Shown here piece after piece: positions 15,679 to 62,427 of a stretch of 64,000 nt of DNA. The DNA comes from Fragilaria crotonensis. Its lineage: Eukaryota > Bacillariophyta > Fragilariophyceae > Fragilariales > Fragilariaceae. A program made the position numbers and the translations under genes. Where the stretch lies: assembly GCA_022925895.1 (NCBI GenBank), contig JAKSYS010000340.1:1-64000 (forward strand), in the 5' to 3' direction. Position 1 is the stretch's first letter. The number at the start of each line of letters is the position of its first letter. The notes beneath the pieces were generated by a model. It had not been told where the DNA came from and did not search any database. It saw nothing but the letters and a program-made list of their open reading frames with translations.

Positions 15679-17490
15679 TTAGTATGTAAACCTATCTAAT
15701 AGTTCATCTCGTCGAGGTTGTGGTAGCAGCTTCGTGAACAAATCGCTGAGGTTCGTTTTTGTACCCTCCTTTGCGACCCGCACAGTCTCGGCCGCCACCG
15801 CCTCCCGACAGCGATGATAAGCAATTGAGTGATGCTTCTTTTTCAAAACACTCTCAGGCAACGATGTATTCTTGTACACGGCCTCATTGTCGCAGAATAT
15901 GTTCGTTGGCCAATAAATTGGAACACCGAGCATTCTGAGCTTATACCTTAGTGATTCGATCAACTCGATCGCATTCTTCATCGCTTGGAATTCACTTCCA
16001 AACGTACTCGCCTCGACAGTGTTCTGCCGTTTGCTGTGCCAAATAATTGGCGCCTTGTTACAGAAAATCAGGATTCCGGTCTGAGATCGTCTGGTTGCTC
16101 GGTCGCTGCCATGGCTTGCATCGACGAAGCAATGTGTTGACATAGTATTGCCCCTTGGCTTTGGCATATCCCGAGGGATCGCTTCCTCGACACCGCGATA
16201 AAAATGATTCCAGTCATGCTTCCTGAACATTTTCTCATTTATCATCGGGTGCTGAGCGTCGAATCCCAATTTCCGTTTCGGGTGCTGTTTTAAGTAGCCG
16301 AACATTCGATACAGCGCCTCCAAATGCCCAACTCGGGGCAAGGCCAGATGAGCCGACATCAGGGATGCCTCCAATAGTATATCGACCCTCCCGATCTCCA
16401 CTGCCCAGCGTAACACGCCGATCAGTTCCTGATAATATTGTACCCCGTCGCTCTTCAGTTCAGCCGATACGTCGAGCTCCGGTTTGTAATCGACCGGCAA
16501 TGGAGTGTAGCATTTGGACGGTAGGCGCAGACCCTTCTTAGCCAATGCGTCCTCGACGTTCTTGACGGCCGCCGATACGTACTTCTCGGCGCTCATCGTC
16601 CAACACCATTTCCCATCAACTTGCATTCTACCAAGCTCTGCCCCAAGGTAAATCGCAGGAACTTCTATCTTATCATCCTTGAGCTTGAAGGTTGATTGCA
16701 GTCCCCTTAACGCATCCGCGGGGTCTGCTGATATCGACAGGATATCGTCAACATAACACAAAACTAACTCGTAATATTCGAAGCCATCAGACTTCACTGC
16801 CGGACGCAACCACACATCAGGGTCCGCTTTCGTTGGCGTGTACCCTATATCGTGTAGAGTCTCTGCTAGAAGAGCACGAAAAGCTGCGCCGGCTGACTTC
16901 AGGCCATACAATGCCTTTTTCACCAGAAATATAGTTCCAGCTTCAGACCCGAACTCTGCACCGGCACGAGTCCAGATCTTCTCCCTACAGTCCGCCGTCA
17001 AATAAGCATTCTGAATGTCGCATGCTAGGACCTGTAGGTCATTCAGTGCCGCGATAGTCAATGCGATGCGCACCGAATCACGTGACACCACTGACGCATA
17101 TGTCAGCGTACTTGGTACCTCGGTCGTATGCCCACCCGCAACAAAGCGAGCCTTTCGCCGGAAGTTTTCGCCCATTTTGACGTCAAAGATGAGATGACAT
17201 CTCACCTCTTGATATCCAATCGGCATCTCGGAGATGTCCTTTTCCCACGCTTCGAAAGCGGGCCTGACGTTGCGCATCTCTTTACAGATTGCATCCCACC
17301 AGAGAGTGTTGCCATTCTCTAGATCGAAGGCCCTCGCCTCCGCAACCGTCTTGGGTATCTTTATCCCGAACTTGTGCGTCCGGACCCAATACTTTGATTT
17401 AAGTTCCGTAGTGTGTAGGGCACCCACCACGCGAAAGCTTCAGAGATCCTCGCTTCAACTGCATATTCAGCAACCTGAACGGGGTAACTC
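15679..17490 (-). mobile_element. Ty1/copia retroelement remnant 1 (reverse transcriptase-RNase H)
   Basis: The 3' part of a copia pol gene. It has the reverse transcriptase blocks VVSRDSVRIALTIAAL, CDIQNAYL, KKALYGLKSAGAAF and LCYVDDIL, then RNase H with HCFVDASHGSD, FCDNEAVYKN and KKKHHSIAYH, and the closing LSDLFTKLLPQPRR. Integrase and gag parts are absent, so it is a truncated fossil. The remaining part is open over some 580 codons. I see no pair of long terminal repeats. 15540-15680 may be a remnant of the 3' end. Confidence 0.85.
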
Positions 17491-17870
17491 TCCTTCAAGT
17501 TATTTAATCTATGTGATTATCACTCGTTGTAAAGCGTGTAATAGTAGCCTATGAGTTAATCAAATCAATCACAAATAAAAAGTGAGTCCATTTGTAGAGT
17601 CCCAAACCGTACTGTCGCATACTTATACCGTATGGTATATCTCATGTATGAATCATATCACAATCACGTAATATTAACAGTCCCCGCGACTCCGATCTGA
17701 CTTATGTTAGTCGAAGTCGTAACCCCACATTCAGATAAACTCAATCGGATACCATAACAGAGGCCTCGACCTTGTACTTTAACGGGAAATCTGGTAAAGG
17801 TCTACTGGTTCTGGACAGTCTCCAATGCGTCCCCAAGGTAACGTCCCCGTGCCACATGTCCCCGGTGTGA
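17491..17870. other. Spacer between two copia remnants
   Basis: No gene. It may include terminal-repeat sequence of the neighbouring copia element, but I found no second copy in the window to confirm this. Confidence 0.4.
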
Positions 17871-17874
17871 TACA

Positions 17875-20800
17875 TCACCATAATAGCCTCTCAAGTAACT
17901 CCTTCATCTTCGGACCTGACATTAACTTCGTTAATATGTCGGCAAGATTGGTGCTTGTATCTTCTTTTGCAACTTTGATTGTCCCCGCAGCTATCGCTTC
18001 GCGGACCCGATGGAAATTTATCGCTGCATGCTTCTTCTTCAGGGTAGATTCTGGTCGCGCATTCGTAACCACTGCCGAATTATCACAGAAAACTGCGCAT
18101 TCTTCAACAATTGGTATGCCCATCATGCGCAACTTGTATCGGAGCCCCTCGATCATTTCGACCGCTATTCGCATCGCAAGCAATTCAGATCCGTAGGTCG
18201 ACGCTTCGACAGTATTCTGCCTCTTTGAAAACCACAATATCGGCGCCCGATTAACAAATATAATGATTCCTGAATGTGATCTACGTGTCTCTCTACATCC
18301 GGCGTGGTCAGCATCGACGAAACATGACATCATAACCTCTTTGCCTCGCGGTTCCGGCATGTTCGTAGGAATTGCTTCACTTGCCTCAGGATAAAACTCC
18401 GTCCAATCGCACTTCACGAATCTTTTACTCTTGTAAACCGGGACCGTATCGTCGAATACCATCGTCGATCTTCTATGCGCTTTTAAATACGCAAATATGT
18501 GGAATACCTGCTCGAGATGGCCCTCTCTTGCAGATACAAGGTATCGCGACATGATGGACACGGGCATCAAAATGTCGAGCCTTCCCAGTTCGCATATCCA
18601 GCGCAAAATACCAATCAAACCTTGGTAATAATTTAGTTGTCTGCTTCCCAGTTCTGCAGACATGTCGAGCTCTGGACGATAGCCACTTGCTAGTGGTGTC
18701 TTCGCGTTTGGCAACAATCTCATATCTGCCTCCGCGAGTTCACGTTCGACGTCTGTAATAGCCTTAGTCACGTATGATGTGGATTCGAAGGCCCACGTAA
18801 CCTTGTCCGGATCGTCACTTTCTGGGATTCGAAATTTCTTGACGTTCGCTCCGAGGTATGTGTCAGGTTCCTTCACACTTCCAGCCTTCAGAGTGAACCG
18901 CTTTCCGAGTGAGTCCATAAAACCTTTCGGGTCAATCCCTTGAAAACCAAATCATCGACGTACGATATGACGTATTCGTAGATTTTGTCCCCGTTTGGTC
19001 GCTTTGCACTTCGTAGCCATAGATCGGGATCAGCTTTGGAAGACACAAACCCAAGCTCTCTCAGATTTAAGGCTAAGTAATCTCGGAAGGATCGGCCACT
19101 CGACCTCAAACCATACAATGCCTTCGCAATGATGGCACGTTTCCCTGCATACTCTGGACCGAGCTGATCTGTGAATTTCGTCCACACTTTTTCTTTATTC
19201 GGGGCGGCAAGGTAAGCGTTTTGAATATCGCACGAAAGCACATCCAAGTCATTGAGCGCTGCCAAGAGAAAGAATAATCGCACTGTATCTCGACTGACCA
19301 CAGATGCAAAGGTATCCTCCTTCGACGCTTCGGTCATGCTGCCTCTCGCAACCAGCCTCGCCTTTCGAGTCAAATCCATCTTGACATCAAAAACGAAATA
19401 AGTTTCGACGAATTGGTAGCCGGGAGGCACGCTGTCCGAATCGTTCTCCAAGAATTCGAAGGCGGGGAAAACATTGCGAATCTCCTTCTCAATTGCCTTC
19501 TTCCAGAAGTCTGTCCCCGTTCTCTTGTCAATCGCGAGGGCTTGGGCGACGCTTTTCGGCAATTCCAAACCATACTTGTGGGTGACGGACCAATACTTGG
19601 TCTTAACCTTGTTCAAAATTCGATCCCGTTTCTTCAACACAAAGGGTACCCACCATCGAAAAGCAGGTTCTTGTGTCAAACCATTCATGACCGCGTAGTC
19701 GGCGACCTGAACTGGGTACGAATCCTTGATATCAGCAAGGGTTACCCAAGAGCTCGAACCATCCTTCCACTCGATTAACAGTTTCCAGCCGCGCGTCGTC
19801 CGCTTTGTGCGGGGTCCTGACTTGGTAGAATAATAGGATTGTTCTTCTGGTATCGCGTCGCCGGTCTTCTTATGGTCGATGATTTCCTTCAGCAACAAAG
19901 GTGGCGACCCTGGTCGTCCACCTGCGAATAAATGCACTCGGCTATCAAATTCGCTGTGTAAGTATCTTCAGTTCCATCCTCAAAGCATACGAGATACTCT
20001 CTCGTATCGAGGATGGGGTTCGGATTGGAGGATCCGATCGGCTTTCCGTCACTGTCTCGTTTTCGAGACTTCACAGTGCCGCGGAGCGTTTCACCACCGC
20101 GATCGGTGACAATCTGTGCATTCAAATATCTGTCAAATGCTTCAGGTGTATATTCGTCGGCGTCAGCTCGAAGTTGAGGAGCTGCGTCATCGTCGACGTC
20201 ATCCTGAAACAAATCAACTTGTGGTAGCACATTGTCTCCGATCTCCGCAAACACTTCCTCGTTAGATCGATCATTTCCGATCTTCGAGTTAATCGAATTC
20301 AGCAGCTCCTCAATCTCTCCACATTTATCAACCTTCTCCTCCGGGGTTAAGGACCACACGGTACTTCGCACTAGAGGCTTAGCAGACTTCGGAAGAAGAA
20401 ACACTGCGTCACCACCTCCGTAGTCTTCAGCTGGACCAAGCCAACAGGCCAATTTGCGTTCGTTGTCGTTATCAAGAAAAGCAACGACGTCATACCAACC
20501 GTGCATCACGTAAAGCGAAATATCTGGAGTCCAACCGTGAACCTGCTCGAACGCGCTTCTTCCATTCAAATCTGGGTGCGATCCAGCCATAAAAGAACGG
20601 AGTCTAGCGCACAAGTTTGCCAGGTAGTCCCAAAGCCGCCGTGGAGATTTTGTCTTATCTTGAAACCGCCTAATCATGCGCTTGAGTTCTCGAATGTCTA
20701 ATTCCGCCTTATTCTGGAATGGAGAGTAGGGCTCCGTGTACTTGGGATCAATCGAGTACCTGCGGATCCTCTTCTTCCATTCTTTCCACCCTTCCATTGT

Positions 20801-21490
20801 TGGATCGTTGTCACATAAAAGAGTTTCCGGTATCCCAACTTTCTTGACAAAATCGTCAAGCGCGTATATTGATTCGTTCTTCCTTTCCATCGGGTAAACC
20901 TTTGTGAACCCTCGACCGTTGCCAATAACATGGGCATAACGGTGCGATTCCAAGGACAAAACCTTCGGTTCCATGATGTCAGCATAAAACATTCCGCCCA
21001 TCCTTGGATAGCGAAGATGCGTCATTTGCGTTCTGAATCGTTTGGTGGCCGGGTTCGGGATCGATCGCACACCTTTCTGAGTTGTCACGTCAAGTGTCTT
21101 TTGTGCGGTCGCCAATCCTGTCATCCATCGCCGTGAAACATTTTCAGGTGTTACATGTGACGTTACGTCGCCCGTTCGTACCGCGTATGCCTTCGATTCA
21201 ATCAATTGAAATGGAAACTTCTGGACGGTTGCATCCAGTGAGATACGTCCAGCCTTGACTTGCCACATCATCGCAATTGGTCCTCACACCGTGCTGGACA
21301 GACGTATCATCATCACTTTCGTCGTCGTCCTCATCATTGTTACTACCGCTGACGTACGCACTCAGGTTGAACATGGTCTCCATCATGCTGTTGTCAACAT
21401 CTTCAATCCCTCCAAGGAGGTCCTCGTTAGCACCTTCATACTGATCATCATCGTGCATGATGAAGTTGCTGTTTCATTTGCAATGGAATT
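17875..21490 (-). mobile_element. Ty1/copia retroelement remnant 2 (integrase, reverse transcriptase, RNase H)
   Basis: A longer copia pol fossil of the CoDi type. Integrase lies at about 21270-19890 (FYADIMEPKVLSLESH, CDNDPTMEGW, EPYSPFQNKAELDIRE), reverse transcriptase at 19940-18890 (VVSRDTVRLFFLLAAL, CDIQNAYLAA, KALYGLRSSG, SYVDDL) and RNase H at 18900-17875 (CFVDADHAGC, FCDNSAVVTN, NLADILTKL). An acidic linker (21460-21200) precedes the integrase. The gag end and 5' terminal repeat are missing, and there are a few breaks. Its protein differs clearly from remnant 1, so the two are separate insertions and not a tandem copy. Confidence 0.85.
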
Positions 21491-22206: not shown

Positions 22207-22341
22207 ATGATCACCACTCGCATCAGCCTCTCACTCACTTTAATCACGGCCGTTTGTGGTGCTCGCGCAACTACTACGGAAATTCGTTCCTTGAATGGGT
22301 ATACTAGGAGAGGGAAGAGACAGCGTACCGGAAGCGATTAG
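22207..22341 (+). pseudogene. 5' end of a secreted-protein gene, cut by the MULE
   Basis: The ATG at 22207 opens a 44-codon frame starting MITTRISLSLTLITAVCG, a good signal peptide with likely cleavage after GARA, followed by a basic segment. The stop codon is supplied by the first bases of the MULE terminal repeat (22335 onward). This suggests that a host gene was interrupted. On the far side (27467 onward) the sequence stays open for a few codons but shows no known domain. It could be a chance open frame. Confidence 0.35.
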
Positions 22342-22376
22342 AATGCAAGGAAATGACGTCAACATTTTTGTCGCAG
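22335..22376 (+). repeat. MULE left terminal inverted repeat
   Basis: Pairs with 27425-27466. It contains TGACGTCA (22354-22361), a perfect bZIP/CRE palindrome. Confidence 0.85.
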
Positions 22377-22689
22377 AATCTGACTTTTCGGAATCCTCGT
22401 TTTATTGCGTCAACAGGAGCCATTTTCCAAGCAACCTTAGTCAAAACTTCGTCATGGATAAGGAAGATAAATCTGCCCGACATTTGTTTGAACAGTAATA
22501 AAAATCTTCGTGTGTTAATGTGATTATAACATTGAATACCCACAACTTCCGCCACAATTTACCACAGTTTTAACCTTTATGGTCCACACCATGGTTCGTT
22601 TGTTTTGGTTGCTTCAACCCCTGTTGCTTTGCCAAAATCCTCTTTCATGCTCACATTATGCTCTCTCCATTCGTTGTCCTGCCTTTAGG

Positions 22690-24855
22690 ATCCAGAAGAG
22701 TTAGTAGTTTCTCCTACAAAGCCTGTGGATGCTTTTTTAACCGCTTTCAAGACTGCGACGTGGATTGGGTCCCTCCCATTCAATGGACACCTTTGCTTAC
22801 CTTCCGAAGATTTCTGTGCTTCATCGGAAACGAAGCACAACCTGTTCGAGTACACTACTAGTTCCCTATACAAAGGCCCCATGAAGTTTATTGTGCGCTT
22901 CAGTCCATTGCTGTACCCTACTGTTGGAGGATTCGGCAAGGATTCTGGAGGCCAAAAACTTATCACTGATTTATGCCAAGCCGCCAGATCCCTTGGTAAC
23001 TGTGCCCTGATATCCAATGGAAGTAGTGCTAAAGCCTGCAAGGACCAACGCGTTTTGCTGTGCAGTAATGGCCGTAAGTATCATCATCGTTTGGATGTTG
23101 CGCAAGCCGATGCTTATCGTGTGACCACCTATATTGGAGACAAAAGGAACTCTCGTGGTTCCAATAACTCAGGAAAGGCATTGCGACGACGTAATTGCAC
23201 CCAACGCGATACAAGGTGTACTTGTTCTGCAAAAATTGTCATCCGACTAGACCAGTACAGCTTCCACCTAGTTTGTGGGGTCAGAGACAACCAGCATAGG
23301 GGTCACCCACCCATGCCTTCCAACGAGATAACCAATCGCAAACGTTTTCTGGACGCTCCTACCCTGGAAAATGCAGCTGCAATGGCTGCTGCCAATATCC
23401 TGCCCTCACAAGCTGCATTGTTCACCCGAAGCAGTACTGGTGAGCTATTTACCCGTGGACAGATGGCTTATGTTCAAGGTTTTTCCCGAATGGCACAAGA
23501 TTTAATGGATTATTCACCTCAGGGTGCTGCCTTACCCTCTGACATGTCACCGTCAGACAGTATGCTGAATTATCTCCAAAAAATTGGCGCATCATTTGTC
23601 TGTCTGTATCATAACGGGAATACGAAAGAAATTCGTGGTCAAAATCGCAAGGCGGCACGAACTGAAGGCAATCCTGTTGATGATGGGGTTAATCTAACCA
23701 GCCTTTCCATGGTGACCACAATGGAAAGCGCCCCAACCCATAAGTCTGTACCTCTGAGGTCACAGAGACAGCCGATTTCAAGGAATATGCCCAGAGAAGT
23801 AGGCACCCAGTTGGAGCAAGGGACGACCAGGACATTCTTATTGCATGTTGCTGGGTGTTGCCAGATGGTAGACGTCTCTTTCAAGCCTTTCCAGAAGTCG
23901 TTTGCATTGATGGGACACATGAGACAAACAATGAAAGCAGACCCTTGCTTACACTTTTGGTCAAGGATTCGACAGAAATGTGATGGTAGTGGTCAGATGC
24001 TTTGCCCCAAATGAAAGATCTTGGTTGTTCCGTTGGTTATTCCAAGAAGCACTTCCTGTGCTCTTAGGTACTCAAAATTGCGGTTGGTTAAGCTTGTCAT
24101 GACAGATGGCGACTCCCAAGAAATGGCGCAGGTCGACTACGCAATTGCGACATATTTTGTCAACGCAGTTCGTAGTCGCTGTGGATGGCATCTTGTTCAT
24201 CAAGGCTGGAGACAAGAATGCAGAGGTTTAGGCTTTCGCAAGGGCAAGAGAGATTCTGCAAGAAGTCAGGTGAGAGTAATTCAAAACTGGCTATATAGCT
24301 GGATGCGCCGCGGGGTAGACTCGAAAGAAGAACAATATGAAGTGTAAGTCACACTATTTTGGTCTCCACATGTATGTCGTTGACTGTACCTAACATGATC
24401 ACTGTGACTACAGAAGTAAGGCCCTATTAATTACTTATTTGAAGTCAGATGTTGTGAAGGCCATTTTCAGCGATGATGGTGGAGAGAAACTGTTGGACTT
24501 CATCCGTGGTTGTATCATCCCACATGAGCAAAGTTATTGTTTCTACTTGCGGAAGGGCATTAGGCACTTTGAGACCACCACGAACTCTGGTCATGAAGGG
24601 ACCAATCACGCCATCAAATCTGGTCCTTCCCGTGTACTTCCACAGCATGCAATTGACAAATCGGCCAAAATTCAGCTGGATATGGATTGTAACAAGTTCG
24701 ACCTCTATCGTCGTCATCTAGCTACCGCGTTGCTTGGAAGAGCAACATGGAGTACCTCCCTGACTGTGAACGACATTACTCTCCCAGCAGAATTCATGTT
24801 GAAATTTGCTATTCGGGAGTGCGAGAACTATGCATCTAACAACCGAATGATTTGA
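22690..24855 (+). pseudogene. MULE transposase, FAR1-like, spliced, frame-broken
   Basis: The coding stretch appears to begin after a splice-acceptor-like TTTAG at about 22690. An N-terminal FAR1/MULE DNA-binding region has KACKDQRVLLCSNGRKYHHR, then RCTCSAKI and FHLVCGVRDNQHRGHPP. The catalytic core follows with CIDGTHETNNESRPLL (first D), LVMTDGDSQEMAQVD (second D) and GHEGTNHAIK (final E). A clean 70-base intron (24344-24413, GTAAGT...CTACAG) joins EEQYEV to SKALLITYL in frame. Frame changes lie near 23.75 kb and 24.08 kb. The stop at 24853 falls inside the arm of the foldback repeat, and no SWIM zinc finger follows, so the C-terminus may have been clipped by that repeat. Confidence 0.8.
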
Positions 24856-25240
24856 ATTGGTAACTCGTACAACGCAGCGACATTAGTGTATTTTTTTCTA
24901 CCAGTAATGTCGACGCTTGTACAACGCGGCGACATTGGTGGATTTTTTCTACCAGTAATGTCGACGCTGCTGTACAGCACGGCGACATTGGTGGATTTTT
25001 CTACCAGTAATGTCGACGCTTGCTGTACAGCACGGCGACATCGACATTATTGTATTTTTCACCAGTAATGTCGACGCTTTTACACGACGGCGACATTGGT
25101 GGCCTTTTTTCTACCAGTAATGTCGACGCTTGTACAACAAGCCAACATTAGTGGATTTTTTTCAACCAGTAATGTCGTCACATGTACACGATGGCCACAT
25201 GAGTGGATTTTATGCTACCAATTCGATAATTTGCAGATTA
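24840..25240 (+). repeat. Foldback array, left arm (about 7 hairpin units)
   Basis: Units of 50-58 bases each hold CGACATTGGTGG and CCAGTAATGTCG separated by a T-rich loop, so every unit is itself a hairpin. The arm begins with AACCGAATGATTTGAATTGG, overlapping the transposase stop, and this boundary recurs inverted at the end of the right arm. Confidence 0.9.
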
Positions 25241-26389
25241 TTCAGGTTGCAACAAACAACGTTGTTATTCAGGGCTGTGAGTTGTCATTTCCTCCTACAA
25301 CTGCAGTTTTTAGATATAAGGATAGACAAAAAACATCCTTACATTGGTAAGAGTCCGTGCGTGATGACAAGCAGTGGTGATATCTTGGATTGAAAATAAG
25401 CATATCTCCCGGTCTCAGTGCGACAGCTATCCCTTGTTCTGCAAATCTCTAGTGCGTATAGCGAGATGATTGTTTTGTTTGCGCCCTCTAGTGCGTATAG
25501 CGAGATGATTGTTTTGTGGACATGCGTCAACTTGTTGATGGCAGCCTGTCTTGGAATCAATGTGAATACAGTGTCTCCACATGCCAATTCCAAACGGGCT
25601 CCAGAAATAGTGTCAACAACTTGCAGATTTTCAGCGACCGTTAGAACAATTGAATTACCCACATTACCTGGAAGGATTGCAGTTGTGTCCAGTGTTCCAC
25701 TATAGAAGATAGGTCTACTGCTCAAGAAGAAGGCTTTGCACAGTGCATGCCATGGTGATGAAGAAATGGTCGCAGGCAATCTATCTTCTTCTTCTTTGCT
25801 TTATCGCGTTTCATTGCCTGCTTGCTTCAAGGATAGCCGTACTGTCCTGACAAGTTGTACGCCACCTGACTCTGCAACTCGAACTAGTGTTCCTTGATTT
25901 GTACACGTTGGAAGCCTCGCTTTTCAGCTCTGTCAACATCAAAGATAGCGGAATTGTCGGTCTTCCCAACGGTACTACGCCTCATGATCGCTTCCCGTTG
26001 ATCTCGGATCTGCTGCTACCATGAACAATGTCACGGCTAGCGGTGTCCTTTTTCACAACTGTACTACGCCTCACAAAGGTTTCTCGCTGTCGTTGTTCCC
26101 AACGGTACTACGCCTCATGATCGTTTCCTCGTTGATCTCGGATCTGCTGCTACCATGAACAATGTCACGGCTAGCGGTGTCCTTTTTCACAACTGTACTA
26201 CGCCTCACAAAGGTTTCCGCGTTGATCCTTCAACGTCCGCTAACAATGAGATGGCAAATAATACACAGGAATTTCTGAAGTGCATTTCTGAAAAACATGT
26301 TCTTTGATGACGTTTGCGCCACTGACGCACTGAATTCTCGTAAGTGCCGCTGTGTTTTTGCGCAGCGTAAAAGTGGCGGCAAGCACCAT
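25241..26389. other. Unique core of the foldback
   Basis: No identified gene. It contains a 38-base direct duplication (TCTAGTGCGTATAGCGAGAT..., 25449 and 25487) and a tandem duplication of about 130 bases (near 25967-26097 and 26098-26228) with ACTACGCCTCA and CTGCTGCTACCATGAAC in both copies. A 146-codon minus-strand open frame (25779-25339) spans the first duplication; its product is unrecognised. Confidence 0.6.
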
Positions 26390-27222
26390 CGTGTACATGT
26401 GACGACATTACTGGTAGAAAAAAATCCACTAATGTCGCCTTGTTGTACAAGCGTTGACATTAGTGGTAGAAAAAAATCCACCAATGTCGCCGCGTTGTTA
26501 CTGGTAGAAAATCCACCAATGTCGATGTGTTGTACAAGCGTCGACATTACTGGTAGAAATCAGTAATGTCGCACAAGCGCGACATTACTGGTAGAAATTC
26601 ACTATGTCGCCGTGTGGTACAAGCGTCGACATTACTGGTAGAAAAATCCACCAATGTCGCCGCGTGGTACAAGCGTCGACATTACTGGTAGAAAAAAATC
26701 ACACTAATGTCGATGTCGCCGTGCTGTACAAGCGTCGACATTAGTGGTAGAAATCCACTAATGTCGCCGTGTGGTACAAGCGTCGACATTACTGGTAGAA
26801 AATCCACCAATGTCGCCGCGTGGTACAAACGTCGACATTACTGGTAGAAAAAAATCACACTAATGTCGATGTTGCCGTGCTGTACCAGCGTCGACATTAC
26901 TGGTAGAAAAAAATCCACTAATGTCGCCGTGTGGTACAAGCGTCGACATTACTGGTAGAAAAAAATCCACCAATGTCGCCGCGTGGTACAAGCGTCGACA
27001 TTACTGGTAGAAAAATCACACTAATGTCGATGTCGCCGTGCTGTACAAGCGTCGACATTAGTGGTAGAAAATCCACTAATGTCGCCGTGTGGTACAAGCG
27101 TCGACATTACTGGTAGAAAATCACACTAATGTCGCCTTGTTGTACAAGCGTCGACATTACTGGTAGAAAAAAATACACTAATGTCGCTGCGTTGTACGAG
27201 TTACCAATTCAAATCATTCGGT
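26390..27222 (-). repeat. Foldback array, right arm (about 15 hairpin units)
   Basis: Inverted relative to the left arm. The unit is GTCGACATTACTGGTAG, an A-run, then CCACTAATGTCGCCG and a GGTACAAGC end. From about 26.6 to 27.1 kb three unit types recur in the order A-B-C three times (endings CCGCGTGG, CACACTAATGTCGATG and CCGTGTGG), a higher-order repeat. It ends with ATTCAAATCATTCGGTT, the mirror of the left arm boundary. Confidence 0.9.
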
Positions 27223-27424
27223 TATCATACAACGCAACGGAGTGTCGTATCAAGTATGCTGTTACACGCATAACAAATTTCAAAAATTAACTGGCTGGCG
27301 TGAACAAAGGGTGGGCAGGCGTACTGGAAAACCCATGAAAGAAATGAGAAACGAAGATTCCATGTTATCTTCGGCCTACGCGTGTCACAGGTGCTCTACA
27401 TGATGGTCCCACGCAGCTTCATTA

Positions 27425-27466
27425 CTGTGACGAAAATGTTGACGTCATTTCCTTGCATTCTAATCG
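27425..27466 (-). repeat. MULE right terminal inverted repeat
   Basis: Reverse complement of 22335-22376; includes TGACGTCA at 27440-27447. Confidence 0.85.
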
Positions 27467-27684
27467 GATCCCCGAGTGTACCAGGTACTGAATGATATCA
27501 TACACTTAAAACATTGAATTGTTCACCTTGTCGTTGTCATCTTGACACCCAACGTGTGGGACGCGTGTTTTCTCTCATTTTCTGTTCCGTCACAAGAATC
27601 CATTACACTTGTTCACCAGCAGGAGTTCCTGGTAATAGTAGTCTGATTGACTGACAACTGCTTCCGTACACATCAAACGTCAAA

Positions 27685-31200: not shown

Positions 31201-31205
31201 GGTTT

Positions 31206-31360
31206 CGATTAGAATGCAAGGAAATGACGTCAATGATGACGTCACAGTACTGACCCTTTCACGTGCTACCTACGGTGATACAGTACTACAGTAAGACAGT
31301 AACATAGGGAGAGCATGCTCATTGGGTACGGCTTGACGTCATTTCCTTGCATTCTAATCG
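31206..31360. mobile_element. 155-base MITE with MULE ends and three CRE motifs
   Basis: Both ends carry the 28-base inverted repeat (starting CGATTAGAATGCAAGG) identical to the ends of the MULE at 22335-27466, so it is a non-autonomous relative. TGACGTCA occurs at 31225-31232, 31237-31244 and 31334-31341. The element sits about 460 bases upstream of the gene at 31819. Confidence 0.9.
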
Positions 31361-31818
31361 GATCCTACATAAATGTAGCAAAGACGAGGTCATGGGCATT
31401 GTTTAAATCTCATTATGACTGTGTCTTTTCGGCACTTTCCGCGAAGACGCTTTTCGGTCACGTTACCAGACATGAAACCGACATTCGAAGAATCATCAAA
31501 CGGACCCGGAAAGAAACATTTAAACGAATTAACTTAAATGTTAAGGAACACTTAAGCGCAGCTGGGGAATAAAGACGAAACCAAAGTTCCTTTAGTTCGC
31601 CCTGAAATGCCATTTTCATTTGCCCTGGAGCCTTCTAATTGGCTGATACAAATACCCTCGAATCGAAATTCTATCAAGTACGACCAGACGACATCCGAAA
31701 ATGCCGAGCTCCCAGGGCTACGATCAAGAACAATCAATTGTGCATCAATCATTCCTCCGAACGTCACACAACTTTCAATCATTTCTTCTTCTAAAACACT
31801 ACCTCCAACTACGCAGTC
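31361..31818. promoter_or_regulatory. 5' region of the 31819 gene
   Basis: Between the MITE and the ATG there is no gene I trust. The 80 bases before the ATG are pyrimidine- and A-rich (TTTCTTCTTC...), as in many diatom leaders. No clear TATA box is seen. Confidence 0.3.
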
Positions 31819-43400: not shown

Positions 43401-43475
43401 CTCACCAGCACCTTGCCGAGTTTGACAATTTCATTGTTCGCTTCCTGGTACCCCTTTTCAAAAGTCAAAAGTAAC

Positions 43476-45787
43476 ATGTCGCCCCTTTCCTCCGATGACG
43501 ACCTGGCGACGATGATGTTGATCAGAGAGGCCGACTATGACGATCCCGTCAAGGTTCGTGCCCTGTTGCGAAATGGGAGCGATTTGAATCGCGAGTATAC
43601 AGTCTTGGGTAAAACAGCCTTGACCATGGCATGTGATGCCATGGGCAATTTGGAGGTACTTCGCGAGTTGCTGAAATGCGACACGGTGGATGTGAACTGG
43701 CCTGATAGAGAGGGCGAGAGAGCCCTAACAGTGGCAATTAGGAGTGGCAACTTGGACGCCGTTCGCGCGCTGCTGAAACACAGCAATGTGGAATTTGACA
43801 GTGAGGCTTATGGTGCCCTGTCTATAGCGCGCGATGCTGGAAATTTGGATATAGTTCGCGAGTTGTTGAAACGAGACGATTTCAACTTGAACCACGTGTA
43901 TGATGACGGTGACACAGTCCTGACAATGGCTTGCGAAATGAACAATTTGGATCTTGTTTGCGAGTTGTTGAAACGCGACGATTTAAACGTGAATCACGAG
44001 TATGGACATGGTGACACAGTCCTAAAGTTGGCTTGCGAAATGAACAGATTGGATGTTGTTTGCGAGTTGTTGAAACGAGACGATTTCAACGTGAACCACG
44101 TGTATGAACGTGGTGACACAGTCCTATCAATGGCTTGCGAAATGAAGAACTTGGATGTGGTCCAAGAGTTATTGAAACACGACAAATAAGATGTAAACCT
44201 CACCGATCATCAAGGGCGCACAGCCCTGATGAAAGCTGCATCATGCAGTTCAAATTGTGACATTGTTCGCATGTTGTTGAAACACGATAATGTGAACGTG
44301 AAGGTCCAGGATACGTTTGGTGACACTGCCCTAGCAATCGCGTGCAGCAGTCCGAACAATTTGGAAATAATTTGCGAACTGTTGAAGCATGCTGATGTGA
44401 ACGTGAACTGCCTAGATAACCACGGTGAGACACCCCTAATTATGGCCAGCTCAAGGGGTCATTGGGAGGCTACTCGTGAGTTGTTGAAGCTTGATACGGT
44501 GGATGTGAACTGGCGGGATCAAGATGGTCGCACAGCCCTGACAAGAGCGTGCCTTGCTGGCAAACTTAACATACTGCGCGAATTGTTGAAACACGACAAG
44601 GTGGATGTGAACTTCCAGGATAGCAGCGGTCACACAGCCCTGACAAGGGCGTGTGATGTAGGCAACTTGAACGTACTGGGCGAGTTGTTGAAGCACGACA
44701 ACGTCGATGTGAACGTCCAGGATAGCCGCGGTCGCACAGCCCTGACAAGGGCGTGCGAAAGGAATAATTATCAGATTGTTTGTAAGTTGTTGATGCACAA
44801 CAAAGTTGACGTTAACCTCAGAGATCGTACCGGGAGATCAGCTCTGGATATCATGTGCACAGCTAAAGATTTTGACATTTTTTCCTTGTTGTTGAGACAT
44901 GCGGATGTGAACGTGAACGGTCAAAATGAACGTGGCGAGACAGCCCTTATGATTGCCAGCTCGATGGGTCGTTCAGATGCTATTCGCGAGCTGTTGAAAC
45001 ACAACATGGTCGATGTGAACTGCCGGGATCGAAATGGTCGCACAGCCCTGACAAGGGCAAGCAGTGCAGGCTATTCGGACGTGATTCGCGAGTTGTTGCA
45101 ACACGACAAAGTTGATGTTAACGTCCAAGATAGCAGTGGTCACACAGCCCTGACAATGGCGTGCGAAAGGAACAACTTCAGTGTCGTTCGGAGATTGTTG
45201 ATGCACGACAAAGTTAACGTTAACCTCAAAGATCATAGAGGGAGAGCAGCTATGGATATCGCCTCCAGTGCTGAAAATGGGGCCATGATTTCCTTGTTGT
45301 TGAGACGTGCTGATGTGGACGTGAACGGCCAAAATGAACTTGGTGAGACAGCCCTTATGATTGCCAGCTCAATGGGTCGTCTAGATGCTATTCGCGAGCT
45401 TTTTGAAACACAACGTGGTCGATGTAAACTGCCGGGATCGAAATGGTCGCACAGCCCTGACAAGGGCATGCAGTGCAGGCAAGTTGGACGTGATTCATGA
45501 GTTGTTGCGACACGACAAGATTGATGTGAATGCCAAAGATCATAAAGGTCGAACAGCCCTTGACTTGGCAATCCGCAATAACCATTGGAATGTCATTGAC
45601 GTATTGCTTGAATACGAGGTGGATGGCAACTCTAAAGTTGCACACGGAAACTCGACCCTCATCTCAGCCTGTCTCAAGGGAAGATTGGACATGGTTTGCA
45701 AGTTGTTGGAGCACAGGAGGGTGGATAAGAGCATCAGGAATAAAGGGTGATAGGCAGCTCTGGATGTTGCTCAAAATATCGAGTTGA
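43476..45787 (+). pseudogene. Ankyrin-repeat gene, copy 1 (about 19 repeats, broken)
   Basis: Starts MSPLSSDDDLATMMLIREADY, as in the other two copies. Repeats of about 33 residues follow the pattern GxTALTMACxxxNLDVVRELLKHDKVDVN. It has roughly three more repeats than copy 3, added in the GDTVLxMACEMNNLDLVCELLKRDD block. It is broken by an in-frame TAA at 44187 (copy 3 reads TTC at the matching place), a one-base gain in a T run near 45402, and a stop with a small deletion near 45748. The role of such proteins is unknown: they have no other domain, and ankyrin stacks mediate protein binding. Confidence 0.85.
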
Positions 45788-45789
45788 TT

Positions 45790-46338
45790 CACTTCTTGTC
45801 TACATGATCATGACAAGTATTGCTGGCGCCAAAAATCGGAAGCAAAGAAGAAGAAGAGCCGTAGAGAGTAGTTGATTCCATGATGCAGGAAAAGAGGTGC
45901 GTGGTTGGTCGCAAGGTTTAGTACTTGGAGGCGCAGACCTTGTAGGACCAGATTCTACATGAACAAGAGAAAGGGCTTTGTTAAGTAAATGCTGTATTGG
46001 TACAAAACAAAAAATAGGTTAGCAACTCGTTCAACCTTTAATCAAGTCAAAAAAACCACTTCCCAAGGAACGGAGGTAACGAATCGATACGCCATCAATG
46101 GGATCCCTCTGTAGGTGATTCATTTGGACAAAATGACAATGCTTTGAATTAGTTCGCGGACAATAAGGTCGACCATTCCACACTGCACCAGAATGCTCGC
46201 CAACATCTTAGTCAACTTGGGTTTGTGTTGTCGACACGCCTTTGTAATTGCGGATTTGGGTTGAGAACAGCAAGCATCCCAACGCTGCGTGGTGCAATGG
46301 AAAACGCAAGAGATCTAGAAAAGCGTGTCTACAAACGC
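45790..46338. other. Spacer shared by all three duplicated units
   Basis: No gene. GAATCGATACGCCATCAATGG and flanking sequence recur after the second (about 53777) and third (about 56785) ankyrin genes, marking this as part of the duplicated segment. Confidence 0.8.
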
Positions 46339-46527
46339 ACTCGTTGTTTTCTTGTAAATAAAATAAAATAAAAATTGAACTAATTAGAGGGTTGTCACCG
46401 TGTTTCAGCCGGTAGGCTGATACCGTGTACCCCGTCCCGGCGGTCGAAACCGCGAGGACTGCTATTATCTAGACAAAGAAACCGAAACGGGACTGAAAAA
46501 AGACGTGATCCGTGACTGACGCATAGA

Positions 46528-48516
46528 TCAAACGGGACTGAAAAAAGATGTAATCAGTGACTGGCGCGACGTTCCATCTTTCGTTAACTCAGCAGACGAC
46601 TGTTTGACTTTTCGGAGCCAGCGCCTACGCGTTGCCGGTGGACCTTCCAATAGCTTGGAAAGAGGACGTTGGCAGTAGTGTTGGTCGCCTGTGCGAAGGA
46701 GATGCGGACGTGAGTGGTAGTACTCGATCTCAATTGCTTCAGCCGTGGAGGATAAATGGGTGCTTGACGTGGAGTCATGGAGGCAACCGTTCCGCGCAAT
46801 CCAAAGTCGACGAGTATGCTGACATAGAGCGGAGATGATTCGTTGCATACGGGTGTGTCCAGCACGTGGATCGCAAGTGGGGGTATGCATGTCGAGAATG
46901 GCCAATTCCGACCAGTCCCGAGCGAGGAAACCTTTAACAGCCGAGTTCCATCCAATTTGTTGTTGCGACGATAGAGCGGAAGTGATCCCGGGATGAAAAT
47001 GGGAGGGGTACTGAGTGATAACCGGTGCAAACTCGGAATCTGAAGTAAGCACATGGCAGATGCCCTCAACGATCAGATACCGAATAGGATGAGGATCTGT
47101 TGTTAGGATATCCGAGCGAAAGGTGGAAAGACTTAAAGCAGATGCGGGATTAGCCGTACATCTAAGAAAGTGATGAGGCGTTTCGTCGGCCGCTTTGCAG
47201 CATGGGCAAAGCTTTAAAGTAGTGTCCTTGATGGATGCCTCGCGAAAACGTTGTATGCCGAGAGGAAGTACCTCATGAATGAACTTGAAGTGTTGTGTTC
47301 GAAGCGTTGGGCGGAGTTTGCGAAAATGGTGTCCAAAAGTGTGAAAATCGACAAGGTCCCAAGCCGCATCAGTCCATTGTTCTGTCTTTTGTATCTCGGT
47401 GCGCTGATGGTATCCGTTTATATGGAACCGGACACAATCATCATAATGTCCTGTGACCGGTGAGCCATTAATGAACAACGTACTCCCATTGTCCTGCCGA
47501 TGGTCCACCAATGATCTGGATCGAAGGCGTCCATGTTCACGATATCGGGTAGCGAGAAAGTCCGCATCAATATTCAACCTAGCGGGAAGTGGAAGTCGAT
47601 CGTAGGATATCGAAACATCCTGATGGGCTTTAACCCATATTGGTCGGAAGGAGCGTTTGAGTGCGCGAAGTGACGACGATATAATGGATATAAGATCGGC
47701 ATCCGAGGGCATGCGAATGAAACGGCGACGACCGCAAAATTGATGGAAACGACTGATAGCTGAACGACTGTCGGTGTACCAATTGAAGGAGCACCGATGT
47801 TTCAATCCCCAGAATGCCGACAAGGATGACAGCAACAGCAGGGCGGATGCACATCCACCGAGTTCACTACGAGTGGATGAATGAGTGTCAGTGGAACCAT
47901 CCACCGGGCCGGAACATGTGAACAAAACCTGTTTACCGGTGCTAAGAATCCAGCCATGCGTAGCTGAGTTTTTACTTAGTCCCCCATCGGAGGCAAGATG
48001 CAGCCGAGACTTGGATCGAAACGCGCGCCACACTTGAAGGTCAGAAGCTTTCTGTTGAAGACCGTCTAAAAGACGACGCTCTGTTCGTGATGGAAGGGAT
48101 GAAATGTAAGAAGAAAAATCCTCAGGAAAAGACTGCGGCGACGCTGTGGTGGCTGAAGGAGTAGGACATTTTTCCTGGGGGACTTTCCAATAGGGCGGAT
48201 AGCGAAGGTAAGACGAACGAAGGAACCGTTTCCATAGTCGCTGTTGGGCTTTTGATGGTTGGGTCTGTCGAGGCCACTTGGTCGAAGTCTCAAAATCATA
48301 CGGGCGACTGCCGTCGAGGTAGCACAGAAGAATACGATTCGGGTGATCGGGATCGCACATGTCTGCTAGAGTAGCGACTTGGAGCCAAAGACGGACGAGA
48401 TTTAAGTCCTGTTGTTGCGCAGGTGTGTACCTCTTCAAATGTTCCGACTGCATGATGTATTCATCCTTCGGGCCATGGAGTGGATCTAGATGAAGGTCCG
48501 AAATCTCGAGATGCAT
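46528..48516 (-). CDS. LINE RNase H and zinc-knuckle C-terminal part
   Basis: About 660 codons, open. RNase H motifs run in order: HLASDGGLSKNSATHGWIL (first Asp), STRSELGGCASALLLL (Glu), FNWYTDSRSAISRF (third Asp), IWVKAHQD and NIDADFLATRYRE. A C-terminal CPCCKAADETPHHFLRC is the CCHC-like knuckle of LINE ORF2. The protein ends RQSLITSFFSPV, which fits a PCNA-interacting (PIP) box, QxxIxxFF. It is probably the downstream part of the single polyprotein that starts with the reverse transcriptase and not an independent gene. Confidence 0.8.
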   Translation of the reverse strand: MHLEISDLHLDPLHGPKDEYIMQSEHLKRYTPAQQQDLNLVRLWLQVATLADMCDPDHPNRILLCYLDGSRPYDFETSTKWPRQTQPSKAQQRLWKRFLRSSYLRYPPYWKVPQEKCPTPSATTASPQSFPEDFSSYISSLPSRTERRLLDGLQQKASDLQVWRAFRSKSRLHLASDGGLSKNSATHGWILSTGKQVLFTCSGPVDGSTDTHSSTRSELGGCASALLLLSSLSAFWGLKHRCSFNWYTDSRSAISRFHQFCGRRRFIRMPSDADLISIISSSLRALKRSFRPIWVKAHQDVSISYDRLPLPARLNIDADFLATRYREHGRLRSRSLVDHRQDNGSTLFINGSPVTGHYDDCVRFHINGYHQRTEIQKTEQWTDAAWDLVDFHTFGHHFRKLRPTLRTQHFKFIHEVLPLGIQRFREASIKDTTLKLCPCCKAADETPHHFLRCTANPASALSLSTFRSDILTTDPHPIRYLIVEGICHVLTSDSEFAPVITQYPSHFHPGITSALSSQQQIGWNSAVKGFLARDWSELAILDMHTPTCDPRAGHTRMQRIISALCQHTRRLWIARNGCLHDSTSSTHLSSTAEAIEIEYYHSRPHLLRTGDQHYCQRPLSKLLEGPPATRRRWLRKVKQSSAELTKDGTSRQSLITSFFSPV

Positions 48517-48749
48517 GTTGTTGTTTCAAGAAACTGACGCACCGACAGTATCCATGACGGTGTTAAATAAGAGACATGTCGGTTGGGTTGCTCCAAGAGA
48601 TAGAAATCCACTCCTGCCTCACGCTGCGAGTAATCTAAATTCAATCGAATTAGGTTGCCAGCTTCCGAATCACTATACAGGGCGTTGCGCAGAAACTTAA
48701 GAGTCTCGATACCCATTTCTGTCCGCAGATCATACAAGCCCAGTCCACC

Positions 48750-50447
48750 GAGTTCAAGAGGGCCATATCGTAAGGCAGTTGGAATGGTGCTGCGAATATG
48801 CAGGCGTTGAAGGATGACTCGACTTATTTGTGACTGGACCTTGGATAGTTCCTCTTCGTTGGTGGCGAGCTGCCAAGCTATATCTCATCGATGGAATATA
48901 AATTGAACGATGGAAAATAGCCACATCCGTTTCAGTCAACCGTGGGGATCGTAGACGTCGAGCGAAAGTGTCTGCTTTTTCTTTCAGAGCAGCAAGGTGA
49001 TCAGTAAAATCCCCCATAGGATTTATAAGAACTCCCAACATTCGGATTGATTCGGTCGGTGATGTTTGCTTGATAGCGTGGCGAGTTAATGATTTGCCTT
49101 GAGTCAAGGAGATAGACGGATCAGTCGGTAGCATCCGTCGCAAAACTGGACGCCCATGCTGCCATTCCCATTGAAGAACAAAATAAGAACATTTCTTCAA
49201 ATTGAGTTTTCCTCCCGACATGTAAAGAAGTTTTTTCCCAAGACTGTGCGACACTCTCAAGGCGAGCAATAAGATCGCTATAGGAGTCTCCATCGGTTGA
49301 CGACGAGGTAAAACCAACTGACGTGTCGTCCACGAACGCGTCCGATGACCGTGAATGTGATCTGCCACCAGCGACGGGGTCAAAATGCATGCGATGGGGA
49401 ACCATTCGGTCGAAGGCATGTAGAAGGAGAACAACGAGAGATAGCCAGACTGCCGGTGATGCACCGCTGCCTTGACCAGTTCCAAATAAGGGAGCAAAAG
49501 GAGTTCCTGAGTAATTGGATTCCGAGACGCCATATGCTGTCTTTACCGTATACCGCATAAATTGCAGAGCCTCTGCATGGAGGCGAACCGCGTTCTTGGG
49601 CATGCCACATCTGCGCGCAGCCAACATACCAAGCGCGACGATGATTCGGTCATAGCACGCTGAAGCATCATTGTCAAAACGAGCCATATCGTGACGTAGT
49701 ACTCGACATAAATCTGTTGTGAGCTGCGTGAGCATGATGGGATCGATCGCAGCCCGACGTGGGATGGAACCGTGTTGAGAGTCGTGCAGAAGGTCCAATT
49801 TACATGCGTGACGGACCAACCGATGGCCCCACTGAAGTTTCAAAAAAGAAGTTGTAATCCGCCTCGAACAGGTGGACAATTCTTAATCGGTTAATGCAGG
49901 GTTTTCCAACGTCTTTTTCAATCATGACGTTTGTAGCTCGACACCATCGTGGAATTGCAATCCCGCGAGCAACGACTATATTAATGAAATAGACAAAACA
50001 CTTCAGTAATATCGGGTCCTGTATCAAAGCTCGGTAGTGTCCAAGATGACGACCGCTTGGTGAAGTTGATGTCTGCTCTTTCCATCCGGTAAAACCTCGA
50101 ATAACCTCATCCGATGATATCTCAGTAGGAATATCACCATGCGTACGTACGTGCGTTGGAATGACAAAAGAGGCCAGAAATTCCCGAAGATAGTTGTCAG
50201 AACCATGCCACTGCTCGGGTACGATGCCTGATAGGAGGTCTTCGGACTGTGGGGATAAGCTCGTGAAGGTCAGTGCATCATGGATTATACCATGACCGCA
50301 GGGAGACTCGGACGCGGCACGAAAAGACTCTTTGTTATAATCAAGGATGTGTTTTTCAAGTTCCTCACGAGTAAAGACTGTTTCCCATGGAATATCCGTA
50401 TGTTCTTGGGTAATTTGGTAAGCTGAATATCCAGATTCATGTGCCAT
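48750..50447 (-). pseudogene. LINE reverse transcriptase part, frame-broken
   Basis: Begins near MAHESGYSAYQITQ. Reverse transcriptase motifs: TSPSGRHLGHYRAL, RATNVMIEKDVGKPCINRLR, FDNDASACYDRII, GTGQGSGASPAVWL and the catalytic AFVDDTSVGF, followed by GKLNLKKCSYFVLQW and RMLGVLINPMGDF. The phrases NDASACYDRI and GTGQGSGASP are characteristic of a LINE lineage common in diatoms. Three overlapping frames cover it; two of the switches coincide with AAAAAA runs (near 49842 and 49235). Confidence 0.8.
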
Positions 50448-50606
50448 TGAGGACGGTGGAACAAGAACTTTGGAAAGGCTAGACCGCTCCGATGGTTTTG
50501 TTATCCGTCGGATGTGTCCAAACGTTGTTCTAGTCGTTTCTCTCCCGATATTGTATTCATCACTATCTTTGCCTTGCGTCGTGAGGATGACTCGTTGTTT
50601 TCTTGT

Positions 50607-51070
50607 CCTTGATCTTTTTCAGCATTTCCGCCGCATACATCGTTGTTCGTTCTCGGGGCTTGGCGACTCACAAGGTAATAGTTCTTGATGCAGTACCCCA
50701 TCACTCGTCCAAGTAGTCCAAGTAGCACCAATCACATGAGTTTCGCGAACCCCTTATTGATAAGCTGAGGCAAGGTGGAGTCGTCCAATGCGTTCAACGG
50801 TGACAATTGCATTTCTGACCATGGCGTTGCGGAATTCCACTCGAAAAGAGTGGTTTCATGCCCCGTACGTTGGTCATGTCGTGAATTGTCAGGGACCGAA
50901 ACGAGCATGTTGCTACTAAGCCATGTCGACTCCCAACAACTCATGACGCATAGCCAAGGACAGGGCTGTCATGGGTTTGGAAATAAGCCGCGAAGGAAGG
51001 ACCCCACTATGGTCACAGTAACGATGATCATCGCATTCTTTGCTGCCTACATCGATTCTCAATGTGATCG
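50607..51070 (-). pseudogene. Truncated PrsW-like protease copy, unit 1
   Basis: Minus-strand pieces match the 3' end of the gene at 57041-60057: LLGLLGRVMGYCIKNYYLVSRQA, and FEWNSATPWSEMQLSPLNALDDS with LPQLINKGFAKLM. The match fades at about 51070. It is the right end of duplicated unit 1, separated from its ankyrin gene only by the LINE. Confidence 0.85.
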
Positions 51071-51189
51071 GACAGTTGCAATGCATTGCTTTTGATGTAG
51101 ACCAACATCCTTGCACGATCTGTTTCAAAGCATAAAAGCGTTGTCGATGAAGCTTGATGAAGAGATTGTCATGCAGAGAAGTAGACGGT

Positions 51190-51770
51190 ATTGTATACAC
51201 CCATACCCATATACATCATATAATGTATGACAGTATGACACATACATATAAATCAATTACTCCAAGTACGCCTACAAGTACACGTACTGTTTGGCATGTG
51301 ATATGATATATGATACTAGTGGGTACCTCCCAATTGGTCGGACTTTTGGAATACGTGTACGGTATGGGTTGTGCACGGTTGTGTGTACTGTTTGTACAGT
51401 TCAGTACTATACGCAAGTAGTGCAGTACCCCAGAGTGGTCATACTCCGTAACAGACGCACGCACTGACGCAACTACGTATATGCAAATCTTACCGACATC
51501 GCTTACGGAGTACTCCAGTATGCATGTATGACATATATCATACTCCGAGTATGAGACAGTATTCATTTGATCCAGTACCCCAGAGTGGTCATACTCCGTA
51601 ACAGACGGACGCACGCACGCACACACGCACACAATATAGTAGGATATGATAAAACGTATGTGTGTATACAGTATGTAGATTGGAGATGGGAGGATAGGAG
51701 TACTTGTAGGATTTATGTAAGAACGTATGGCACGTGAGACGTCAGACACAAAACACGACTTGATAATTCC
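51190..51770. other. AT-rich spacer with a 43-base direct repeat
   Basis: CAGTACCCCAGAGTGGTCAT with following bases to the ACGCACGCAC run occurs at about 51423 and 51572. A 177-codon minus-strand open frame here is low-complexity and unlikely to be a gene. Confidence 0.6.
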
Positions 51771-51863
51771 ACTTCTCGGAGTACATTAGCACTGTGCGCC
51801 GAGTTTGACAATTTTCTCCCTTCCGCAAACTGGTTTCCCATGTGTTCAGAAGTCAAAAGTAAC

Positions 51864-53587: not shown

Positions 53588-53589
53588 TG

Positions 53590-54060: not shown

Positions 54061-54069
54061 TGAAACGCA

Positions 54070-60658: not shown

Positions 60659-62427
<1,769 letters not shown>

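Follow-up and report, generated by a model that had tools for sequence, protein, structure and literature searches.

The stretch of DNA analysed here (hereafter the window) comprises the first 64,000 nucleotides of contig JAKSYS010000340.1 of the diatom Fragilaria crotonensis, within a 62.1-Mb assembly (GCA_022925895.1) whose contigs are designated below by C numbers, that of the window being C270. A mobile element of 5.14 kb lies at about 22330–27471. It contains a decayed transposase gene of the Mutator-like element (MULE) type and two inverted arrays of dyad units of about 52 bp (24867–25220 and 26392–27200), which enclose a 1.17-kb core. Its features, including terminal inverted repeats (TIRs) and open reading frames (ORFs), are the following.

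22330–22376, plus strand: 5' TIR, starting GGAAGC-GATTAG, a 47-bp match (91.5%) to 27425–27471
22716–24837, plus strand: decayed MULE transposase gene, with a disrupted frame and without the C-terminal part present in relatives
24838–24840, no strand: junction of the lost transposase C-terminus, about 1.1 kb lost
24841–24863, plus strand: outer extension of the left arm, 23 bp, an inverted copy of 27201–27223, identical by eye
24867–25220, minus strand: left array, about 7 units of about 52 bp (6.7 copies, period 52), with the dyad CGACATT, about 21 bp, AATGTCG
25221–26385, minus strand: core, a broken ORF2 antisense to the transposase, with residues ~166–305 missing and internal stops
25955–26217, minus strand: 134-bp tandem duplication, 2.0 copies, within the ORF2 N-terminal region
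26386–27200, plus strand: right array, 14–16 units, read as the fusion of an inner (R1) and an outer (R2) spacer
26573–27186, plus strand: three-unit higher-order repeat, period 156 bp, 3.9 copies
27201–27223, plus strand: sequence adjoining the right array, read as the source of the left extension
27224–27471, plus strand: 3' end of the element, with the TIR at 27425–27471, ending CTAATC-GGATCC
31201–31365, no strand: short miniature inverted-repeat transposable element (MITE) sharing these TIRs and lacking arrays, 153 bp between the TIR motif ends (31207–31359)

This anatomy of the element and its arrays is described with high confidence. An 18-base half-motif of the unit is matched 22 times in the window, with 6 minus-strand matches on the left and 16 plus-strand ones on the right, against an expectation of 0.03 from 100 shuffles. 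Exact CGACATT...AATGTCG dyads number 4 on the left and 11 on the right, and 6 and 15, respectively, when at most one mismatch per half-site is allowed. On the right, 12 copies cover 26573–27197, with more units extending back to 26392. The outer inverted pair, 24841–24947 with 27117–27223 (107 nt, 94% complementary), places the limits of the foldback, to a base, where a preliminary description made from the letters of the window had put them. The inverted relation between the arms, the arrays of about 7 and about 15 units, the core of about 1.15 kb, the three-unit pattern of the right arm, the location inside a MULE-type element and the two-level inverted design are all borne out. The arrays are also found elsewhere in this assembly: a genome search with the left array yields 68 matches on 22 contigs, window included, so that the choice left earlier between a multicopy element and a single local expansion falls to the former. 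The units of the window vary in length, chiefly because of a T-run in the loop, which ranges from 2 to 6 T in the window (24893–27170) and from 3 to 6 in C786; six T are present in 16/17 runs of copy C57a and in 15/17 of C54. The irregular run in the window and in C786 may reflect homopolymer error or slippage.

The giant foldback itself had initially been considered as a possible mobile unit. This view is rejected: shared sequence among the copies reaches as far as the short TIRs at 22330 and 27471, beyond which their flanks are different. When 21.0–29.0 kb was compared with relatives, homology in what is called below the first family mostly began at 22325–22337 (as in C786, C114, C361, C860, C130 and others) and finished at 27471–27489; it begins at 22314 in C342, and the 5' end is interrupted in C198 and C376. 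Long inverted arms forming the ends of the mobile unit, by which Foldback (FB-type) elements are recognised, are absent here, the arms being internal. The 47-bp TIRs (91.5%) are those expected of the MULE superfamily, and their 26-bp core has 317 genome matches (167 + 150) at up to 3 mismatches, with none for a reversed-pattern control. Among the 100 of these 317 matches that were listed, 18 inverted pairs span 152–165 bp, one of them being the MITE of the window at 31207–31359. No clean target site duplication (TSD) of 8–11 bp was found in 22 paired ends, the best signal over 47 offset/length settings being z=2.7 (10 bp, identity 34% versus 26% shuffled), and the name MULE-transposase element is therefore preferred to canonical MULE. 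As seen by eye, the terminal six bases genome-wide are mainly GGAAGC, GGATCC and GGTTTC; the MULE ends combine one GGAAGC with one GGATCC, and the short elements mostly carry GGTTTC and GGATCC.

The derivative found in the window is also present at C57 (two copies) and at C786 with differing flanks, and it has thus moved after its formation. The two C57 copies, which share their 5' flank, are counted as one insertion. They lie in inverted orientation with an identical 5' flank at C57:16248–45399, one of them ending at element position 27260, and the pair forms a large inverted duplication, possibly an assembly artefact.

The transposase DNA of the window is 94–99% identical to that of the copies in C57 (two), C786, C54, C169, C114, C361, C388 and C860. 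Pfam assigns the C54 transposase to PF10551 MULE (E=5.5e-12) and PF21056 (E=1.3e-12); the window's own disrupted ORF (22725–24014) gives a weak FAR1 match alone (E=0.018). Homology to the window transposase ends at 24837 in C54, C169, C114, C361, C388 and C860. In these six first-family relatives, 1.05–1.1 kb separates the equivalent of this position from the array and codes for a C-terminal ORF with a SWIM-like motif; the C-x-C...C-x-H pattern was seen by eye in the C-terminal ORFs of C48, C183 and C54, which have no Pfam match. The sequence of 24841–24863 is matched in C54 at the 3' side only (C54:76949–77008). Since the left extension repeats, in inverted orientation, the sequence next to the right array, we infer that strand switching or an inversion would have remade the left junction out of the right end, with removal of the transposase C-terminus.

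The core corresponds to a second gene. When compared with the intact ORF2 of C54, its segments 25272–25457, 25477–25827, 25764–25922 and 25853–25969 match at 68–94%. The core was also considered as non-coding or captured host DNA, which is rejected since intact antisense copies of ORF2 exist: it is open in C54 (367 aa) and in C388 (493 aa), both lengths being given without established start codons. Genome-wide, ORF2 is represented by 112 matching stretches, 8 of which cover at least 350 residues free of stops. The 134-bp repeat of its N-terminal region occurs in about three copies in C388, C860, C198 and C376. The ratio of nonsynonymous to synonymous substitution rates (dN/dS) is 0.31 between C54 and C388, about 0.09 between C54 and C411 and 0.14 between C388 and C411, both C411 values being obtained with saturated dS; the value of 0.71 for C361, whose ORF2 is disrupted in frame and contains two stops, was not used. 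As judged from the long stop-free stretches and these ratios, ORF2 is a real gene under purifying selection.

The product of ORF2 carries the motifs SHxDxDFF and PGDMLxFNPxYxHCLxSR, kept in the three aligned sequences reaching that region and in C411, and thus an HxD...H...R pattern which we take to be that of 2-oxoglutarate oxygenases. A Pfam search returned no family above cut-off, TET/JBP and other 2OG-Fe(II) dioxygenases included. PDB matches are non-significant, with E values of 0.38–2 for chains named Oxidoreductase and WelO5 and of 1.4 for one other, and none of 14 pattern matches in IMG/VR viral contigs was confirmed. ORF2 adjoins a DEAD-box helicase gene in C411, C121, C783 and C84. 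On C411, the first 5000 positions hold telomere-like CCCTAACCC repeats, followed by the intact ORF2 and the DEAD-box helicase gene.

The fullest relative of the window element among those read, of 10.5 kb, is found at C388:15564–26045. Its order is 5' TIR, transposase, left array, antisense ORF2, array R1, ORF3, array R2 and 3' TIR, so that every spacer after the transposase gene holds an array of dyad units. ORF3, which lies between the two right-hand arrays, carries DUF6824 (Pfam, E=1.5e-16), and C388 is the sole copy read that has ORF3 and both right-hand arrays complete. The gene content, DUF6824 genes for example, points to a diatom host. Weaker ORF3 relatives (26–37% identity) occur in contigs of a second family described below, such as C175, C451, C77, C93, C305, C105, C48 and C183, and in the helicase-element contigs C84 and C592. 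Window positions 25955–26498 align without a break from the core into R1 of C388 (20655–20111), and 26869–27471 align from R2 into the 3' end (16158–15564); in C388, R1 and R2 are separated by the ORF3-bearing stretch of about 4 kb. According to these alignments, the right array of the window is R1 and R2 fused after loss of ORF3, which accounts both for its larger size and for the missing gene. The arrays are thus inter-gene spacers, and the foldback is the result of arrays facing opposite ways round ORF2.

A different origin of the design would be the insertion into a MULE of a separate foldback transposon that had ORF2 for its own gene and the arms for its ends. The array–ORF2–array unit does act as an exchangeable module in C361 (see below), and further A-type dyads and array units with a 51-bp period extend over C54:75085–76646 (75.1–76.6 kb), outside the C54 element and past its 3' TIR. 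This outlying array perhaps lies in a neighbouring element, a TIR match being found near it at C54:74071. Against such an insertion, all 13 annotated elements with arrays of type A or A' (these types are defined below; the 13 come from 12 of the 22 array contigs, with two elements on C57) have, in addition, a match to the segment at the 5' or 3' end of the MULE element, and we consider an independent transposon very improbable.

Comparison with the second family, whose transposase is about 71% identical, shows how the array design is maintained. Inverted arrays of an unrelated 73-bp dyad unit are present there at equivalent positions, for instance at C48:3849–4304 (left) and C48:5787–7165 (right); C183 likewise has a left and a right array round ORF2. 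In six standard elements of this family, left half-sites (up to 2 mismatches) are followed by their partner 15–40 bp on in 76/88 cases, and both 9-bp half-sites GACTATTTG/CAAATAGTC are perfect in 74 of these 76 dyads, with a spacer of 16–19 bp, mostly 18–19. The right arrays of C48 and C183 show 36 left half-sites, and all 31 dyads found in them are perfect. The interior and the linker of the unit are not the same in left and right arrays. First-family half-sites come in two types, A (CGACATT/AATGTCG) and A' (CGGCATT/AATGCCG), with a spacer of mostly 21 bp, whose length varies irregularly in C270 and C786. A count over 20 of the 26 extracted arrays gave 82 exact A dyads, 34 exact A' dyads and a single mixed one. 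Among the 220 first-family units, 145 are distinct; the third stem pair, scored in 142 of them, is A–T in 92, G–C in 38, G–T in 4 and a non-pair in 8. In the left-arm orientation, A–C stem mismatches outnumber G–T ones; these are few independent events, which were not used as evidence. Over 62 Mb of genome, exact dyads number 95 for type A and 636 for the second-family type, B, with none for the controls, and all 50 A and 50 B places listed have near neighbours and are thus clustered.

The relative orientation of ORF2 is less uniform than the position of the arrays. It was read from match positions alone, 40 of 77 candidates being scored and the counts taken from the matches listed. ORF2 and the left array were both matched at 17 second-family places. 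The two point in opposite directions at 12 of these (C48, C77, C175, C183, C451, C878, C495, C31, C105, C765, C304 and C150) and in the same direction at 5 (C305, C130 at 20.6–23.2 kb, C63, C93 and C41). The latter five places may share one event.

Natural exchanges between the two families were also found. In C361, first-family sequence extends over the transposase to the array edge and is followed by second-family arrays and a second-family ORF2 remnant, two leftover first-family units being kept beside the 3' end. In C114, a first-family transposase is followed by units of the second-family left array. The C-terminus of the C361 and C114 transposases is 92–94% identical to other first-family copies, 98% between the two, and 67% to the second family. 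Given this mixed composition, the type of array is not tied to that of the transposase, and in C361 it matches the family of ORF2.

These exchanges bear on the possibility that transposase bound to the dyads draws the element ends together, the arrays then acting as enhancers of transposition. CACTA elements, with their subterminal repeats, provide a parallel for transposase-binding arrays. In favour of it, the genome search gave no transposase match in the five short array copies annotated (C586, C428, C241, C878:58k and C785), and 5/5 consist of a left array, a short core, a right array and the 3' end. This explanation is weakened by the pairing of a first-family transposase with second-family arrays in C361 and C114, by the distance of the left array from both ends in full-length copies, and by the abundance of the short elements with the same TIRs (the 18 listed pairs mentioned above), which have no room for arrays. 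Binding by the transposase is thus regarded as unlikely.

Folding properties allow sites acting in DNA to be weighed against hairpins acting in RNA. An in-register unit of the window (24921–24972) folds with z-scores of -4.8 to -5.5. All-phase scans (about 13–15 phases, up to 4 windows each) give best-phase values of -4.6 and -4.7 for the window arrays, and of -3.9 to -5.1 for first-family arrays, compared with -0.33 to -2.34 for three unrelated tandem repeats of the window used as a control. The preliminary description had made every unit a hairpin: dyads are indeed present in both arrays with negative folding z-scores, and not all units are perfect hairpins. Seven single-unit folds, some of them out of register, were weak: window:26897–26948, and both a slice of L026 and L058:5860–5931, each folded as DNA and as both RNA strands. 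The second-family left arrays fold very well (C48 z -7.5, C183 z -8.0), whereas the corresponding right arrays fold no clearly better than shuffles (-1.33 and -0.87); both arrays of C361 give similarly low values (-1.2 and -0.15).

The stable arrays, together with their location between genes, would suit a role at the RNA level, in which transcribed hairpins or long double-stranded RNA would feed or titrate small-RNA silencing, or serve as terminators or insulators between genes; long double-stranded RNA was the line taken in the preliminary description. Such a role looks quite unlikely, since what is conserved is the half-sites and their spacing rather than stability, the second-family right arrays keeping their half-sites while folding no clearly better than shuffled sequences. 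This favours sites for a dimeric DNA-binding protein. The fact that the two half-sites change together (116 exact dyads against 1 mixed), at near-fixed spacing, points the same way. These sequence patterns thus favour the view that the arrays are DNA sites for a dimeric protein rather than RNA hairpins.

A precedent for such sites is provided by the VANDAL MULEs of Arabidopsis, in which VANC proteins bind fast-diverging tandem motifs in non-coding regions and lift silencing (PMC5735166, PMC10398659; the comparisons with published systems made here draw on excerpts of the papers cited). As in VANDALs, the present MULE type has extra genes and tandem arrays of short motifs in non-coding spacers, with motifs that diverge between families. 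The arrays differ in being inverted round one gene, and the elements in having TIRs. By analogy, the arrays could be VANC-like target sites for an anti-silencing or regulatory protein encoded by the element, a proposal held tentatively, as plausible yet short of probable. Each dyad would then be a putative DNA site for a dimeric element-encoded protein, the candidates being ORF3 (DUF6824) and the oxygenase-like ORF2. Binding to a dense array would let the element label its spacers as open or unsilenced, and unit sequence and protein would co-evolve, related families thereby coming to carry different units. The observed/expected CpG ratio, 1.13–1.68 in seven array stretches versus 0.59–0.72 in three transposase genes, would fit arrays that stay unmethylated.

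Several observations weigh against reading the arrays as protein target sites. The CpG enrichment may simply result from units that contain CpG having been amplified, and no CpG depletion is seen in other transposons of the window (1.21 for the Copia stretch, 1.0 for an element at 6.9–13.2 kb). The motifs of VANDALs are not described as dyads in the excerpts consulted, where the string 'palindrom' has 0 occurrences in PMC5735166. A few third stem pairs are mixed (4 G–T and 2 A–C of 142), some of them in array-edge units, and the arrays of C361 and C114 carry an uncompensated change in one half-site, with 2/26 dyads perfect. The copies in C198 and C376, which have the same flanks and for that reason are probably one insertion, have no arrays. 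Beside the helicase gene, no inverted repeats of the size sought were found round ORF2 in C411 and C84, and C121 has just 4 short inverted pairs, all within a small 52-bp array that lies at a distance on the right (C783 was covered by a tandem-repeat scan, TRF, alone). The arrays are therefore not an obligatory partner of ORF2.

Neutral satellite growth has to be weighed at this point, namely the amplification and homogenisation of palindromic units, followed by inverted duplication, without any function. It would readily account for the absence of arrays in C198 and C376, for the free variation of array lengths among copies and for a left arm re-made from the right end in the window. It would hardly explain why the same positions and the same dyad design recur with unrelated units in families about 71% identical in their transposase, nor why half-sites stay perfect while linkers drift. 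Neutral growth is accordingly judged unlikely, although a serious contender. The proposal of target sites for an element-encoded protein can also be taken further: a MULE with its own oxygenase-like eraser (ORF2), a DUF6824 binder (ORF3), or both, aimed by spacer dyad arrays, in which array and ORF2 form an exchangeable module, half-sites co-evolve with the protein and the inverted arms allow the ORF2 cassette to flip, as the two orientations of ORF2 in the second family would suggest. This extended scheme is speculative and, taken as a whole, unlikely to hold.

A transposon-borne eraser would have a counterpart in fungi, where DNA transposons of varied kinds carry a TET/JBP dioxygenase gene, for which an escape from silencing has been proposed (PMC12730594). 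The likeness is that of a dioxygenase accessory gene; ORF2 is set apart in that it offers the HxD...H...R pattern with non-significant PDB matches, and MULE/MuDR elements are not among the carriers named in the excerpted text. By its transposase features, the nearest described group is MULE-Diatoms (group 37, PMC6446971), listed with SWIM, 'No TSD', 1 ORF, TIRs of 123–124 bp and no other motifs; the MULE transposase and the absence of a clean TSD are shared, and the SWIM-like motif seen by eye may correspond to its SWIM-type zinc finger, whereas the element type of the window has 2–3 genes, 47-bp TIRs and dyad arrays. Tm1, a Mutator/Foldback element of Meloidogyne (PMC3169594), likewise combines a Mutator-type transposase with inverted arms that vary in length and contain tandem repeats, and has both MITE-like and transposase-encoding groups. 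Its arms are terminal repeats, with mostly 14-bp units and 9-bp TSDs, in contrast to the internal arms described here, whose units of about 52 or 73 bp are each a dyad. Rehavkus (PMC6446971) is a MULE relative with a minisatellite before its 3' TIR, and differs by a PHD finger, a 9-bp TSD and one ORF, no inverted partner array being mentioned in the excerpt. Among the open-access titles and openings of abstracts listed, no description of internal inverted dyad arrays in a MULE was found.

Other parts of the window hold unrelated features. A Copia-type retrotransposon occupies 15679–21271 (RVT_2, E=5.9e-19 for 15679–17430). A cluster of ORFs with ankyrin-like repeats, showing internal tandem duplication (periods 102 and 408), extends over 43413–56576; the one ORF tested matches Ank_2 (E=1.1e-31). 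The DHFR and thymidylate synthase genes are adjacent on one strand at 60895–62427, perhaps as a protist-type pair.

Arrays of self-recognition sites in MULE spacers have so far been known from the VANDALs of Arabidopsis. If the arrays described here are indeed such sites, they would constitute a second example of another structure, in which the dyads follow a clear code, units come in three types, modules have been swapped in nature and one gene is a candidate eraser, and the extended scheme would amount to a sequence-specific anti-silencing system outside plants. A foldback structure could then be a by-product of array placement, and the co-evolution of a transposon target motif with its reader protein would become directly testable.

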